A DNA stretch of 39,283 nt from contig WTJU01000070.1 in NCBI GenBank assembly GCA_011526285.1, positions 1 through 39,283 of the forward strand, written 5' to 3'. This DNA is from Candidatus Arcticimaribacter sp. GTDB taxonomy: Bacteria; Bacteroidota; Bacteroidia; Flavobacteriales; Flavobacteriaceae. This document shows, piece after piece, positions 4,908 to 38,928 of the stretch (positions are counted from its first letter, which is position 1; every line of letters begins with the position of its first letter). The notes below the pieces were generated by a model, which did no database searches, had not been told where the DNA came from, and saw only the letters and a list, made by a program, of their open reading frames with translations. A program made the position numbers and the translations under genes.

Positions 4908-7044
4908 ATCCTTTTATTTTCTGTTTTGTTTTTTCAGGAAGCACTCGATACCCCATATTATAAAGGGTAAATCCAAAGATATCGGCAGCCTGTTCAATGC
5001 GTTTGCTCACAGGAGTTCCTGCGCCATGTCCCGCTTTAGTTTCAATACGAATTAAAACAGGATTTTCTCCTTGTTGTTTCGCTTGAAGCTCTGCTGCAAA
5101 TTTGAATGAATGTGCGGGCACTACACGATCGTCATGATCACTTGTAGTAATTAATGTAGCAGGGTAGTTTATTCCTTCTTTTACGTTGTGAACAGGGGAG
5201 TACCCCTTTAGGTACTCAAACATTTCTTTAGAATCTTCTGCTGTTCCGTAATCATATGCCCATCCTGCACCAGCAGTAAAGGTGTGATACCGCAGCATGT
5301 CTAGAACGCCAACAGCAGGAAGAGCTACTTTCATTAGGTCTGGTCGCTGTGTCATGGTTGCTCCCACAAGCAGACCACCGTTTGATCCTCCGCGAATGGC
5401 CAGAAATTCTGGAGATGTATATTCTTCTTTTATTAAGAATTCAGCAGCGGCAATAAAGTCGTCAAAAACATTTTGTTTCTGTTGTTTTGTTCCAGCCTTG
5501 TGCCAAGCTTTTCCATATTCCCCACCTCCGCGTAAATTGGGAACGGCATAGATTCCTCCTTGCTCCATCCACACCGCATTTAAAATACTAAACGAAGGGG
5601 TTAAACTAATATTAAACCCTCCGTAACCATAGAGAATAGTTGGGTTTTTCCCGTTGCGTTCTAGCCCTTTTTTATGGGTAATAATCATGGGTATTTTTGT
5701 TCCGTCTTTCGAAGTATAAAAGACTTGACTAGAAACATAAGCTTCAGGTGAAAAGTCAATGGGAGGAGTCCAATAAAGCGCGCTTTTTTTATCCTTGGGG
5801 AGATATTGATAAACAACACTAGGATTGGCGTAGTTTGTAAAACGATAATACAAAACATCGTCTTCTTTTTTTCCAGAAAACCCACGCACTGTTCCAATAC
5901 CGGGAAGATCAATTTCTCCAAGGGTTTTACCGTCAAAATCGTATTGATATACCTTAGAAAGTGCATCAATCATATATTCAGCAAAAAAGAAGCCACCTCC
6001 AGAGGTAACGCTGAGCACATGTTCGTTATGCGGAATAACGTCCGTCCAATTTTCTATCGCTGGAGCTTGTGCGTTTACTTTTACAAGGCGCTGGTTTGGT
6101 GCCTCGTGGTTGGTCACTAAGTATAAGAGATCTCCCTTATTCTCCAACAGGTAATGATCACTGTCATAAGATCCCGCCATGGTACGCAATGGGGCTTCTT
6201 TGTTTCTAAGGTCTTTTAAAAACAACTTGTTCCCTGAGGTTGAAACAGAAGCAGAAATCAAGAGATAATGACCATTATCGGTGACTTGTGCACCCACATA
6301 GCGATTTTTCTCAGCATCTTTCCCTCCATAAATTAGTTCGTCTTCAGCTTGTGGTGTTCCTAAACGGTGGAAATACAACTTGTGTTGATCTGTTTTTTGC
6401 GAGAGTTCACTGCCCTCAGGCTTGTCATAACTCGAATAAAAGAAACCATCATTCTTTAGCCAGTTTATACCACTAAATTTGATGTTCTTTAAGGTGTCTT
6501 CAACCACCTCTTTGGTTTCAGTATCAATTACAATGATTTTACGCCAATCACTTCCACCTTCCGAAATAGCGTATGCTGCTTTGCTCCCATCTTTAGAAAA
6601 CTGAATGCCAGCAAGGGAGGTAGTTCCATCTTCTGCAAAGGTGTTTGGATCTAGAAAAACACTTGCTTCTTCTTTGTTGTCCCGATAGCGATAGAGAACA
6701 TATTGATTTTGAAGCCCTTCATTTTTATAGAAGTATGTAAACTCTCCCTCTTGAAAAGGAGCACTTATTTTTTCGTAATTCCAGAGCGCTTCTAAGCGTC
6801 CTTTAAGTTCTTTACGGAAAGGAATTTTATCGAGTTGATCAAACGTAAGATCATTTTGATTTTGAACCCAATCAGCGGTTTCTTCACTTAAATCATCTTC
6901 AAGCCAACGATAATTATCAACAACTTCGGTGTCAAAATAGGTGTCAACAACAGCCTGTTGTTTTGTTTCAGGATAGGTAATTGAAGCCTCTTCTTGGCAA
7001 GACCACAATAAAATTAAACAGATTAAGGCAAGTACTTTTTTCAC
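4906..7044 (-). CDS. prolyl oligopeptidase family (S9A) serine peptidase, lipoprotein
   Basis: Cleaves short peptides, usually after proline. The N-terminus [17 protein letters not shown] is a lipoprotein signal with lipobox LWSC (C16), so the enzyme should be anchored in the envelope. Residues ~22-70 and ~435-712 form the alpha/beta-hydrolase domain around a seven-bladed beta-propeller (~75-430). The catalytic serine is S554 in GGSNGGLL, the acidic residue lies in DHDDRVVP (D638/D639), and the histidine is H673 in KAGHGAG. The order and spacing match prolyl endopeptidase (porcine enzyme S554/D641/H680). At 712 aa it is full length. It is monocistronic, 36 bases downstream of asd on the same strand. 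Confidence 0.95.
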
Positions 7045-7080
7045 AATTCACAGTTTTAAACCATGAAATGTAACAAACTT

Positions 7081-8076
7081 TTAAGCACCAATCAAGTTGT
7101 TTTCAATGAGGTACTCTGCAATTTGAACGGTGTTTGTTGCTGCTCCTTTTCTCAAGTTGTCTGAAACAATCCAAAGATTGAAGGCATTTTCTTGTGAGAA
7201 ATCTTTACGAATTCGACCAACAAATACATCGTCTTTACCTTCTGCATATATAGGCATTGGGTAGGTGTTTGTCTCAGGATTATCTTGCACTACAACCCCC
7301 GGACTGTTGTGAAGTAAATGGCGAATATCTTCAACCGTTGAAGCCGATCTTAATTCAACATTTACTGATTCACTGTGCCCCCCAACCACTGGAATACGGA
7401 TTGCAGTAGCTGTAACACGAATTTGATCATCCCCGAGAATTTTCTGTGTTTCTTTCACCAATTTCATTTCCTCTTTGGTATATCCGTTGTCTTGAAAAAC
7501 GTCACAGTGTGGTAGAGCATTGCGGTGAATAGGATAGGGATAGGCCATCTCACCTTGTTTGTTTTCGTATTCGTTTTCTAATTGACGCACTGCTGCCACC
7601 CCAGTCCCTGTAATAGATTGATAGGTAGAAATGACCAAGCGATCAATACCGTATTCTTTTTGTAAAGGAGCCAACGCAACCAACATTTGAATGGTTGAAC
7701 AATTTGGGTTGGCAATAATTTTATCTTCTGCAGTGAGGAGGTGTGCGTTAATTTCTGGCACAACGAGTTTCTTGTCGGGATCCATTCGCCAAGCAGAAGA
7801 ATTATCAATAACTGTTGTTCCAGCTGCAGCAAATTTTGGCGCCCATTCTAAAGAAGTTGCACCACCTGCAGAAAACAAAGCCACATCAGGACACATTTCT
7901 ACAGCGGTCTCAAGACCTACTACAGAGAATTCCTTGTTTTGAAAAATAATGGTTTTACCAACCGAACGCTCAGAGGCCACTGGGATTAATTCTGTAACTG
8001 GAAAATTTCTCTCAGCAAGAACTTTAAGCATTACATTTCCAACCATTCCTGTAGCTCCAACAACTGCAACTTTCAT
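7081..8076 (-). CDS. asd: aspartate-semialdehyde dehydrogenase
   Basis: Reduces L-aspartyl-4-phosphate to aspartate semialdehyde with NADPH, the branch point to lysine/DAP, threonine and methionine. The N-terminal Rossmann motif is VAVVGATGMVGN (residues 3-14), the catalytic cysteine C126 lies in ANPNCST, and the active-site histidine H234 in VGGHSESV. 331 aa from ATG 8076 is the normal length. An in-frame TTG at 8097 would add 7 residues but lies inside the -7 promoter box at 8095-8102, so ATG 8076 is chosen. The next gene upstream is alr, so two cell-wall precursor enzymes are neighbours, though the promoter suggests separate transcription. Confidence 0.96.
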   Translation of the reverse strand: MKVAVVGATGMVGNVMLKVLAERNFPVTELIPVASERSVGKTIIFQNKEFSVVGLETAVEMCPDVALFSAGGATSLEWAPKFAAAGTTVIDNSSAWRMDPDKKLVVPEINAHLLTAEDKIIANPNCSTIQMLVALAPLQKEYGIDRLVISTYQSITGTGVAAVRQLENEYENKQGEMAYPYPIHRNALPHCDVFQDNGYTKEEMKLVKETQKILGDDQIRVTATAIRIPVVGGHSESVNVELRSASTVEDIRHLLHNSPGVVVQDNPETNTYPMPIYAEGKDDVFVGRIRKDFSQENAFNLWIVSDNLRKGAATNTVQIAEYLIENNLIGA

Positions 8077-36201: not shown

Positions 36202-38049
36202 ATGTGTGGAATCGTTGCTTACATTGGAGATCGTCTAGCACAACCCATTGTAATTAAAGGGTTAAAACGATTGGAATATCGGGGATATGATTCTACCGGA
36301 ATTTCAATCTACAATGAGGCAGGACTCCATACCTTTAAAACAAAAGGTAAAGTAAGTGACCTAGAAGAAAAACTAGAGCAGTACCCAAAGCAAAGCTCAA
36401 CCCTAGCCATGGGTCACACCCGTTGGGCTACCCACGGAGTGCCAAACGACACCAACGCCCACCCACAAACCTCTAACTCTGGTAACCTATCCATTGTCCA
36501 TAACGGGATTATTGAAAACTATGCCTCTCTAAAAAAGGAGTTAACCCATCGTGGCTTCACCTTTAACTCTGATACAGATACTGAAGTTTTGGTGAATCTT
36601 ATAGAAGACGTAAAAGAGCGTAAAGGAGTAAAACTCGGTAAAGCAGTGCAAATCGCATTGTCACAAGTTATTGGGGCCTACGCTATTGTGGTGTTCGACC
36701 AACGCAAACCCAACGAAATCATTGCCGCGCGACTAGGGAGCCCATTGGCGATTGGTATAGGAGAAGAAGAATTCTTTGTCGCTTCTGATGCGACCCCTTT
36801 TATTGAATACACCAAAGAGGTGATTTATTTAGAAGAAGAGCATTTGGCGATTATCCGTCGTGGTAGAGCGGTGCGTATCCGTAAAATAAAAGACGATAGC
36901 CTTATTGAGCCTTATGTAGAAGAACTTCAAATGAGTTTGGAGAACATTCAAAAAGGCGGCTATGATCACTTCATGCTCAAAGAAATATTTGAGCAACCAA
37001 AAGCCATTCAAGACACTCTACGCGGACGTCTTCTGTCCAATGAAGGAGTTATAACCCTATCCAGTCTTCGTGAGCATGAAAACCGTTTCCTCAAGGCTAA
37101 ACGTATTTTAGTGATTGCCTGTGGCACATCGTGGCATGCTGGTTTGGTGGCTGAATATCTGTTTGAAGAATTTACACGCATTCCCGTTGAGGTAGAATAT
37201 GCCTCTGAGTTTCGCTACCGCAATCCCATTATTTATCCAGACGATGTAGTCATTGCTATTTCCCAATCTGGAGAAACAGCAGATACCATTGCAGCAATTA
37301 ATATTGCCAAAGAAAAAGGGGCCTTTGTCTATGGTATTTGTAATGTTGTGGGGTCTACCATCTCCCGTATAACCGACACAGGATGCTATACCCATGCTGG
37401 CCCAGAAATAGGAGTTGCCTCTACCAAAGCCTTTACCACACAGATTACCGTTATTTCCCTCATTGGGTTATACCTTGGAAAAGCCAACGGTACACTTTCG
37501 CGCTCACAGTATCAAGAGTATGTAACAGAATTGGAAACCCTACCAAAGAAAGTAGAACATATCCTTACTTCGCAAGCATTTATTGAAGAGGTTGCCACTT
37601 CTTTTGAATCAGCCCAGAACTGTATTTACCTTGGGCGAGGCTATAATTTCCCTGTAGCCCTAGAGGGAGCATTAAAACTAAAAGAGATTTCCTACATCCA
37701 CGCAGAAGGGTACCCAGCGGCTGAAATGAAGCACGGCCCTATTGCGTTAATTGATAAAGAAATGCCCGTAGTGGTGATTGCCACCAAAAAAGGGCACTAC
37801 GAAAAAGTAGTTTCTAACATCCAAGAGATTAAATCTAGAGAAGGACGAATTATCGCTTTGGTGAGTGAAGGCGATACACAGGTGAAAGAATTGGCAGACT
37901 ACTGCCTTGAAATTCCCGATGCCGCCGAACCTTTTGTACCCATCTTGTCAACCATTCCACTCCAATTACTTTCCTATTACATTGCTGTGCAACGCGGGTG
38001 TAATGTAGATCAGCCTAGAAATTTGGCAAAGTCGGTTACTGTGGAGTAG
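36202..38049 (+). CDS. glmS: glutamine-fructose-6-phosphate aminotransferase (isomerising)
   Basis: Makes glucosamine-6-phosphate from fructose-6-phosphate and glutamine, the first committed step to UDP-GlcNAc for peptidoglycan and LPS. The N-terminal nucleophile C2 is in MCGIVAYIGD; glutaminase motifs HTRWATHG and HPQTS follow; two SIS sugar-isomerase domains are recognisable by ACGTSWHAGLVAEY and SQSGETADTI, then YLGRGYNFPVALEGALKLKEISYIHAEGY. The C-terminus is the classic RNLAKSVTVE. 615 aa is full length. The DNA coding for this C-terminus is equivalent to the region recognised by TnsD in attTn7, and sequence of different character begins right after the stop. Confidence 0.98.
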   Translation: MCGIVAYIGDRLAQPIVIKGLKRLEYRGYDSTGISIYNEAGLHTFKTKGKVSDLEEKLEQYPKQSSTLAMGHTRWATHGVPNDTNAHPQTSNSGNLSIVHNGIIENYASLKKELTHRGFTFNSDTDTEVLVNLIEDVKERKGVKLGKAVQIALSQVIGAYAIVVFDQRKPNEIIAARLGSPLAIGIGEEEFFVASDATPFIEYTKEVIYLEEEHLAIIRRGRAVRIRKIKDDSLIEPYVEELQMSLENIQKGGYDHFMLKEIFEQPKAIQDTLRGRLLSNEGVITLSSLREHENRFLKAKRILVIACGTSWHAGLVAEYLFEEFTRIPVEVEYASEFRYRNPIIYPDDVVIAISQSGETADTIAAINIAKEKGAFVYGICNVVGSTISRITDTGCYTHAGPEIGVASTKAFTTQITVISLIGLYLGKANGTLSRSQYQEYVTELETLPKKVEHILTSQAFIEEVATSFESAQNCIYLGRGYNFPVALEGALKLKEISYIHAEGYPAAEMKHGPIALIDKEMPVVVIATKKGHYEKVVSNIQEIKSREGRIIALVSEGDTQVKELADYCLEIPDAAEPFVPILSTIPLQLLSYYIAVQRGCNVDQPRNLAKSVTVE

Positions 38050-38051
38050 GT

Positions 38052-38387
38052 ATGTGTGTTGATAGTTCTTACCCCTATAAATGGATGGTAAGATTTTCAG
38101 TATCAATTATCACCACTCATCTTTGGGATTCAAATTATTCTGAATATCAAGAGTATTTATATCAACGAATTTGTAGTTATAGAGAAGATTTTCTTACCCC
38201 TATTGGGTATAGGAAGATATCTCAAATCTTCAATGAAGAAGGATTGAAAACACTTCGTGGGAGTGTGTTTAAGAACAACCATATTCACTCAATTTATAAG
38301 AAAGGTAAGATTAGAGAAGAACGAATCAATCGTTTGGATGTAGTTGTGGTTTCCGTTCCGACAATTGAATTGTTTCAAAGTTCATAA
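38052..38387 (+). CDS. small protein with a recombinase-domain-like helical motif
   Basis: 111 aa. The segment TPIGYRKISQIFNEEGLKTL, then RGSVFKNNHIHSIYKKGKIREERIN, follows the pattern 'G-x-x-x-I-a-x-x-L/F-N-e-x-G-x-x-T-x-r-G-x-x-F/W-x-x-x-x-v-x-x-I-x-k' of the DNA-binding recombinase domain in large serine recombinases and of short phage/marine proteins sharing it. There is no serine-recombinase catalytic domain, so this is not an active recombinase by itself; it may be a DNA-binding protein or a remnant. The start is uncertain: ATG 38052 lies 2 bases after the glmS stop, but ATG 38085 (MVRFSVSI...) would exclude the first copy of a 13-bp DNA repeat from the coding region. Confidence 0.55.
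   Translation: MCVDSSYPYKWMVRFSVSIITTHLWDSNYSEYQEYLYQRICSYREDFLTPIGYRKISQIFNEEGLKTLRGSVFKNNHIHSIYKKGKIREERINRLDVVVVSVPTIELFQSS
38066..38078 (+). repeat. 13-bp direct repeat, copy 1
   Basis: TTCTTACCCCTAT, identical to bases 38191-38203, 125 bases apart. Here it would be read as (S)SYPY in the long-start version of the small ORF. Confidence 0.6.
38191..38203 (+). repeat. 13-bp direct repeat, copy 2
   Basis: TTCTTACCCCTAT, identical to bases 38066-38078 but in another reading frame (FLTPI), so the identity is at DNA rather than protein level. The end of this copy takes part in a short hairpin TACCC-CTATT-GGGTA (38195-38209). Confidence 0.6.
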
Positions 38388-38562
38388 TTTTTAAAGTTTG
38401 TCAAAGGACTTCTTTGAGAGAGTCAATCTAATATATAGGAACTCTGTTTTCCTTCAGTAATTGGTCTAATATTGTTTCCATAGTGTTCTTCTTTATAGTT
38501 CAGTTTAGTTCTGTTTCCTTCTATAAATATGAACAATGTTAATTTTTGGTAATTTTATTACT

Positions 38563-38730
38563 ATGAATCCAACACTTTCAGATTGGTTTGATGTAATTAA
38601 AAATTGTAGTGTGACTAACACTTACAAAATGGGATGGTGTAAATCTATTGTGGAGTGTTGTATTGAAAATGATTCAAAGGAACTCATTTCTGAATTAGAA
38701 AATGAAATCACCTTAGATGAGATATTATAA
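38563..38730 (+). pseudogene. possible N-terminal fragment of an HNH-endonuclease family protein
   Basis: 55 aa from ATG 38563 (an in-frame ATG at 38536 would add 9 residues). The piece WFDVIKNCSVTNTYKMGWCK, then SIVECCIENDS...EITLDEI, resembles the helical N-terminus of many HNH-endonuclease/restriction-type proteins, where 'NTYKMAWAKAIVE' is followed by a strand ending 'I-x-x-D-E-I-A' and then 'KYYWNQ'. Here translation stops right after LDEIL, so the nuclease part is absent. The next small ORF continues in the same frame after this single TAA but does not resemble the missing part. It could be a truncated gene, a deliberately short protein such as a regulator, or chance similarity. Recognition is from memory of the family and is moderate. 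Confidence 0.4.
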
Positions 38731-38733
38731 GAC

Positions 38734-38928
38734 ATGATGGATACCGAAGATGAGGATTCATATCGAGACCTCAACGAAAAGAAAGTATCAAAACTATCAG
38801 ATGGATGGAGAGAAGGAAGAAACCTCGTCATGAAACTCAGAAGTGGTTTATTCAAGAAATTAAATGATGAGGAACTCGATGATTTAATGGATGTAATCTC
38901 AACCTCATTTGATATGATTAGACGATAA
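38734..38928 (+). CDS. small acidic hypothetical protein
   Basis: 64 aa, starting ATG 38734 (a second ATG at 38737 is equally possible), three bases after the previous stop and in the same frame. It is highly charged and mostly helical: EDEDSYRDLNEKKVSKLSD, then GLFKKLNDEELDDLMDVIS. No cysteines, no membrane segment, no family recognised. Its tight spacing suggests co-translation with the preceding small ORF, and a hairpin with a T-run follows 13 bases after the stop. It looks phage- or island-like in size and composition. Confidence 0.5.
   Translation: MMDTEDEDSYRDLNEKKVSKLSDGWREGRNLVMKLRSGLFKKLNDEELDDLMDVISTSFDMIRR

Follow-up and report, generated by a model that had tools for sequence, protein, structure and literature searches.

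Tn7-type insertion targets the conserved end of glmS, and integron-like arrays consist of short cassettes lying head to tail between repeated recombination sites at one locus. Phage large serine recombinases (LSRs) such as that of TP901-1 combine resolvase, recombinase and zinc-ribbon domains, with no known tail beyond them. In the SSV-type tyrosine integrases of Archaea, the recombination site lies inside the integrase gene and integration splits the gene into int(N) and int(C), as described in the accessible part of a 2021 review (PMC8371274), which treats tyrosine enzymes and calls self-disrupting recombinases exclusively archaeal. An artificial fusion of an integrase with its directionality factor (RDF) has been used to drive recombination in the attL × attR direction, according to the accessible text of PMC6511857. 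In the accessible text of the literature covered, which took in neither subscription papers nor preprints, there is no serine integrase disrupting its own gene and no glmS-targeting LSR in Bacteroidota, and the accessible part of PMC10083194 contains no occurrence of glmS; a bacterial serine version of the self-disrupting integrase appears to be new. Here we present evidence that a small gene behind glmS of Candidatus Arcticimaribacter sp. is very probably the stranded tail of an LSR, derived from an integrative element inserted at the glmS 3′ end. The attP of such elements would lie within the LSR gene or, in the class that we call type A, between the LSR stop codon and a tail in the −1 frame, and integration would leave LSR and tail at opposite element ends.

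The window, the whole 39283-bp stretch analysed, is an entire contig from a 1.98 Mb genome (136 contigs, 84.8% complete). All features considered lie on its forward strand. According to the ORF list, glmS occupies positions 36202-38049, and its 3′-terminal codons (..AKSVTVE*) serve the family as attB. The 111-aa tail ORF (38052-38387), a type A integrase tail by profile match, starts with ATG 2 nt 3′ of the glmS TAG stop, and 0.9 kb of the contig remains beyond it; its conserved domain, matched by the profile of the tails, spans 38079-38375. A glmS-end core at 38029-38048, the sole copy in the window, is read as the glmS-side att junction and includes a 13-base core (38036-38048) with a putative crossover at the A|C step 38038|38039. 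Junction alignment places an element-side att arm, GATAGTTCTTACCCC, at 38061-38075, within the 5′ coding part of the ORF. The tail gene contains two copies of the sequence CTTACCCCTAT at a spacing of 125 bp (38068-38078 and 38193-38203), and similar paired motifs are seen by eye in several type A relatives; the pair is possibly a set of recombinase-binding motifs. Downstream, a short ORF (38536-38730) may be a cargo remnant: over residues 10-51 it is similar to the N-terminal part of an HNH protein encoded in a glmS cassette of genome G070 (locus L026; 18/42 identical by blastp). A 64-aa ORF at 38734-38928 is a further possible cargo gene, with no match in Pfam or among the fetched loci.

The remainder of the element is absent from this assembly. 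An inverted partner of the element-side arm was found in loci L143 and L148; in the window's own genome, the partner-like pattern of the GATAGTTCTTACCCC arm has no second copy. No distal glmS-end core was found in the window or the own genome, where four other core-like matches proved to be unrelated places. The MAG, at 84.8% completeness, contains no other match to the Recombinase domain (PF07508) and none to the catalytic resolvase domain (PF00239) at E ≤ 1. The window element is incomplete, its LSR end lying beyond the contig end or having been lost.

A sequence-only reading of the window had described the product as a stand-alone mini-protein with a recombinase-domain signature and no catalytic domain. 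The latter holds, as PF00239, the domain that defines the catalytic part of an LSR, is absent from the ORF. The signature motif is likewise present, but a profile check found the likeness to PF07508 to be weak: residues 46-83 score 13.8 bits (E = 0.073) against a Pfam cut-off of 21.1 bits. Among 38 aligned tail relatives, 16 touch PF07508 at E ≤ 0.1, the best with E = 2.2e-4. The structure prediction proposed in the same reading yielded a confident model (mean pLDDT 84), yet the integrase-domain matches that it returned have scores that unrelated folds also reach. Serine integrase DNA-binding domains stand near the top of the structural list, where 9y66_A (Z 7.2, 94 aligned, rmsd 10.1) and 9dxh_A (Z 6.7, 69 aligned, rmsd 3.1) are accompanied by unrelated rows scoring alike, and Foldseek gave E = 1.3. 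The predicted structural likeness of the tail to serine integrase domains is modest. By sequence, the tail profile found nothing convincing in the PDB, and an LSR query matched just two catalytic-domain chains there; an AF2 model of the whole LSR made without an alignment was unusable (pLDDT 35).

The identity of the tail is indicated by one IMG/VR record (L112; 7,327 bp), which we read as circular because it carries a 77-bp perfect end repeat. It encodes a 733-aa protein with PF00239 at residues 26-180, PF07508 at 205-302 and a zinc ribbon (PF13408) at 323-390, all three above cut-off, which makes it an LSR. Its last ~110 residues belong to the tail family of the window, the window protein being 46% identical to the LSR C terminus over 85 aa (39/85). 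The glmS-end core lies inside this LSR gene with 0 mismatches, at codons 599-603, just before the tail. The protein shares these domains with phage LSRs and aligns over residues 26-544 to the TP901-1 integrase, from which it differs in its tail and in having the core within its gene. Known LSRs align to its front only, the best 15 alignments per collection falling within residues 22-554, and coverage of at least 80% was reached by 0/58 plasmid records and 0/160 phage records. The window ORF matches the profile of these LSR C-terminal tails and has the glmS-end core directly upstream. What had been proposed as an accessory factor or relic does have a recombinase-type DNA-binding domain without the catalytic part, and can be named more specifically as an LSR C-terminal tail.

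In chromosomes, the two parts of this protein are found separated. Among 395 genomes of the order, 19 give matches at E ≤ 1e-20, in 24 alignments: six LSR parts that end at residues 561-609 and 18 tails that begin at residues 566-638, with 0/24 running from the catalytic part into the tail. The LSR of a Polaribacter chromosome assembly (L142), 36% identical to that of L112 and convergent with glmS, enters the antisense glmS strand and stops at ..YSTVTDFAKFRG*, and tails lie at distal cores. Joining this LSR in silico at the core to either distal tail keeps the frame, giving proteins of 726 or 716 aa. L142 was initially delimited as an element of 11 kb with its end at core 15830, but an arm test made this less likely and favours core 18387. 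LSR ends of the form ..AKFLG* recur in L178, L179, L180 and the remnant L182, and the LSR of L181 ends differently. In a 4.8-kb element of a divergent class with a glmS-proximal tail (L183), in silico joining of the ends restores a continuous 696-aa ORF across the core, with one undetermined residue. L112 is the one record found with a complete fused LSR–tail, the remaining fusions being such in silico joins. A tRNA att site, suspected from the peptide ‘STVTDL’, was rejected, as no tRNA lies at the junctions and the letters are antisense glmS. In L144, from the same genome as L143, another LSR (5533-7183) is convergent with glmS, and no tail was found in the 7.3 kb fetched.

Judged by sequence, the arrangement that defines suicidal integrases is present in L112, L142 and L183 and in the LSR parts that end in antisense glmS. 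As in the SSV type, the recombination site is inside the integrase gene. The differences are that the SSV-type enzymes are tyrosine integrases of Archaea and the present family is serine-type and bacterial, and that the SSV-type C part carries the catalytic domain (accessible text of PMC8371274), whereas in the present family every known LSR domain stays with the N part, leaving just a DNA-binding tail as the C part. Since the parent carries the serine resolvase domain PF00239, it would work like suicidal integrases yet is no member of the archaeal tyrosine type.

The tail family is centred on the glmS end. At E ≤ 0.1, 44 of 100 relatives give a match, many at chance level; with a tail profile, 32 of the 395 genomes of the order are positive (E ≤ 0.001), against 4/395 of a phylum sample, the own genome among them. 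A scan of genome contigs turned 91 pattern matches into 43 tail loci, mostly Flavobacteriales; long-frame hits at L017 (a Cas9-like ORF, judged by reading) and L020 (unrelated) were discarded as relatives. The circle L112 brings the total to 44 loci, 28 of which have glmS within the fetched stretch. The supposition that such proteins recur in marine phages was not confirmed: the window and L026 tails as queries matched nothing in the phage collection, this one IMG/VR circle carries a relative, and searching viral contigs with the window protein, alignment A2 and both LSRs added nothing new except a distant LSR (L131). The exact 13-base core TNACNGTNGARTR lies at most 155 nt upstream of 40 of the 49 tails with a visible 5′ end, compared with 393 of 20,000 random windows from the same sequences (2.0%); nine tails lack an exact core, two of them at contig edges. 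Tn7-type elements likewise use the conserved glmS end as target; here, however, each element boundary repeats about 13-20 bp of that end and there is a serine integrase, and no transposase of the Tn7 kind was seen. The association with an integration hotspot beside glmS, suggested by the sequence-only reading, is borne out.

Two arrangements are distinguished. In type A, the window's kind (22 tails), core and glmS share one orientation and the tail is directed away from the core; in type B (18 tails), core and tail have opposite orientations, and wherever glmS is present the tail is directed back at it. Either way, the tail occupies an element end and faces inward. Viewed in isolation, the window shows a small gene behind glmS, as expected of an independent cellular DNA-binding gene that merely adjoins it. 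The neighbourhood survey of homologues called for by the sequence-only reading speaks against such a gene with element ends, repeated cores, copies away from glmS and the LSR fusion, and genome G005 of the window's genus has no tail behind glmS; we consider this alternative highly improbable. Another member of the genus, G010, has just a short decayed likeness there, judged by eye. Some 33 bp from the end of glmS (codons for PRNLAKSVTVE or close to it) are present at L072 8779, L086 844 and L082 8602 with no glmS gene detected, adjoining cassettes and, in L072 and L086, behind a similar gene; they may mark a second landing place or a junction that has moved. Tails of a divergent class (..SPKLWVIPLS..) are seen at L094 7485-7661, L098 about 6129 and L183 near 15800.

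Type A elements part LSR and tail in a slightly different manner. On a 6.3-kb contig of a Lutibacter MAG (L093), the order is LSR, core, tail; the LSR stop overlaps the tail ATG (TAATG) and the tail is in the −1 frame. The 9.4-kb element L143 has its tail at one core and its LSR, 54% identical to that of L093 and with an interrupted frame, at the other; rejoined, the tail is again in the −1 frame, without an ATG. Because the tail is in the −1 frame, a type A tail is ‘severed’ in the sense of being parted from the LSR gene end, not cut from a demonstrated single frame. Since both type A LSRs end with the heptamer G GGA AAG, an LSR–tail fusion by −1 frameshifting is possible, an idea based on these two LSR ends together with a remnant in L142; the heptamer is missing from L024, and similar heptamers are also found elsewhere in the L093 LSR gene.

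The attPs reconstructed by joining element ends are palindromic around the core, which suggests where the crossover takes place. Across 22 joined cassette or element ends, some of them from nested arrays and therefore potentially mispaired, 343/682 positions are symmetric about the A|C step (in the ACN codon of ..SVTVE), compared with 161-234 at 20 other centres. The arms GGGTAAGGATAACCG and CGGTTATCCTTACCC in L143 and L148 are exact inverted repeats, and the L183 attP is symmetric at 23/31 positions. Arms of different loci share symmetry too (63 pairs, mean 12.4, sd 3.3, max 20) and several nested pairings score low, so that the summed signal carries more weight than any one attP pairing. Asymmetry of the A|C step is a potential reason for the opposite insertion orientations of types A and B.

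Several genomes have further copies of the core directly 3′ of glmS, bounding cassettes of about 0.4-3 kb; many of these contain a tail together with one or two ORFs of cargo. When one LSR was used as the query, only four fetched loci matched (L093, L112 and the overlapping L027/L076), so that most tandem cassettes show no LSR at this sensitivity. A member of the window's genus, G008 (L023), contains a cassette of 695 bp in which a broken tail is accompanied by a single 93-aa ORF. Cargo elsewhere includes an MvaI/BcnI restriction enzyme with two DNA methylases (L143), the PADLOC candidate defence protein PDC-S18 (L093 and L142) and an HNH_4 protein (the G070 cassette). L112, L142 and L183 each have, in addition, a gene for a serine resolvase (203-227 aa), and L143 has a resolvase-like ORF of similar kind, judged by eye. 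Like integron-like arrays, the glmS cassettes lie head to tail and are bounded by repeated sites; they differ in that these are serine-integrase att sites and that most cassettes seen hold an integrase tail besides cargo. The tail matches of G012, G009, G099, G001, G011, G082 and G078 lie within a few hundred bases of contig ends. Because the glmS-end locus seems to break assemblies, cassettes are probably under-reported. After the distal cores at L142 15830, L146 66 and L024 10814 comes a palindrome-like sequence (TAACTACTTGATTATCAAGTA or close to it) that may be the native glmS terminator, moved away by insertions. At L090 6995-7978, the tail frame continues into sequence resembling an IS3-type transposase, judged by eye, likely an insertion into the tail.

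The tails that remain uninterrupted are under purifying selection. Among 16 type A and 19 type B tails, chosen for being uninterrupted, median dN/dS is 0.15 for type A (102/120 pairs with usable dS) and 0.19 for type B (69/171), and pN is below pS in 120/120 and 171/171 pairs, respectively. The overlap with the att arm and a start codon that is not conserved might suggest a spurious ORF in a DNA-level att repeat; however, the excess of synonymous change in all 291 pairs and the confidently predicted fold (mean pLDDT 84) make this hardly conceivable, and the ORF reported in the earlier reading is real, with homologues in 32/395 genomes of the order. The tails also appear to move independently of glmS: of 36 listed cross-locus pairs, restricted to tail identities ≥ 0.78 with glmS inside the fetched stretch (a cut-off that favours this outcome), 32 show greater identity between the tails than between the glmS genes, for example window/L091 (0.814 versus 0.661) and L069/L070 (0.969-0.990 versus 0.844), the four others being L092 with both L094 tails and two L073 pairs.

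Whether the stranded tail acts on its own can be weighed from the same data. One possibility is that, once integrated, the tail is expressed as part of the glmS transcript and works as a stand-alone protein binding att arms, in an accessory or directionality role. Uninterrupted copies are under purifying selection, tails persist in cassettes without a detected LSR, and the L093 tail has an ORF of its own, with an ATG overlapping the LSR stop; artificial integrase–RDF fusions are functional, according to the accessible text of PMC6511857. An in-frame ATG just after the glmS stop is present in the window, L091 and L102, the only three of 20 type A tails to have one, but 12 of the 20 lack any ATG, GTG or TTG upstream of the domain in the open frame, chromosomal copies of G008, G009, G013 and G024 are interrupted, and in L112 the tail is fused to the LSR. 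We regard an independent role as unlikely. A plain fused directionality factor also fits poorly, since the artificial fusion drives attL × attR and the fused form here belongs to the circle. That the tail is a functionless relic of integration agrees with the unconserved start codon and with the interrupted and truncated copies; on the other side, 45 of 57 tail hits are full-length in a single frame, intact tails keep a low dN/dS (which may have been acquired in autonomous elements), and the window copy is intact with an ATG, so that it may be translated. We judge the chances of a pure relic to be evenly balanced.

We envision the following sequence of events for the stranded LSR tail. A free circle would make the LSR with its tail, and the LSR would integrate the circle at the glmS end, the copied core leaving glmS intact. 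Because attP is within the integrase gene (in type A, directly beside it) and attB is the glmS 3′ end, recombination between them would part the LSR from its C-terminal DNA-binding tail; the type B LSR would then end in a few residues of antisense glmS, and in type A the tail would become the glmS-proximal element end. LSRs of this family presumably catalyse these integrations. Holding the att arms, synapsis or direction are candidate tasks of the tail, and its loss would block or redirect the reaction after integration. By analogy with suicidal tyrosine integrases, shedding it would be expected to stabilise the integrated state, from which an intact relative could provide rescue in trans; LSR-less cassettes would likewise move in trans, and the window copy would largely be a by-product of integration. 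A broader picture, which we put forward tentatively as the less probable outcome, is that of bacterial serine-type ‘suicidal’ integrases whose integration at glmS sheds the DNA-binding tail as a directionality switch, with LSR-less tail-plus-att cassettes moved in trans by related LSRs, building integron-like defence-gene arrays behind glmS in Flavobacteriales, and with type A fusion by −1 frameshift at G GGA AAG.

If true, a bacterial serine-type example would mean that the self-disruption trick was invented independently, and it suggests a built-in one-way switch in serine integrases, enzymes whose directionality is of practical weight. Small ‘recombinase-like’ genes beside glmS and protein ends of the form STVTD(F/L)AKFLG would be explained as att junctions, and the findings indicate a hotspot of defence cassettes behind glmS, at which several assemblies break.
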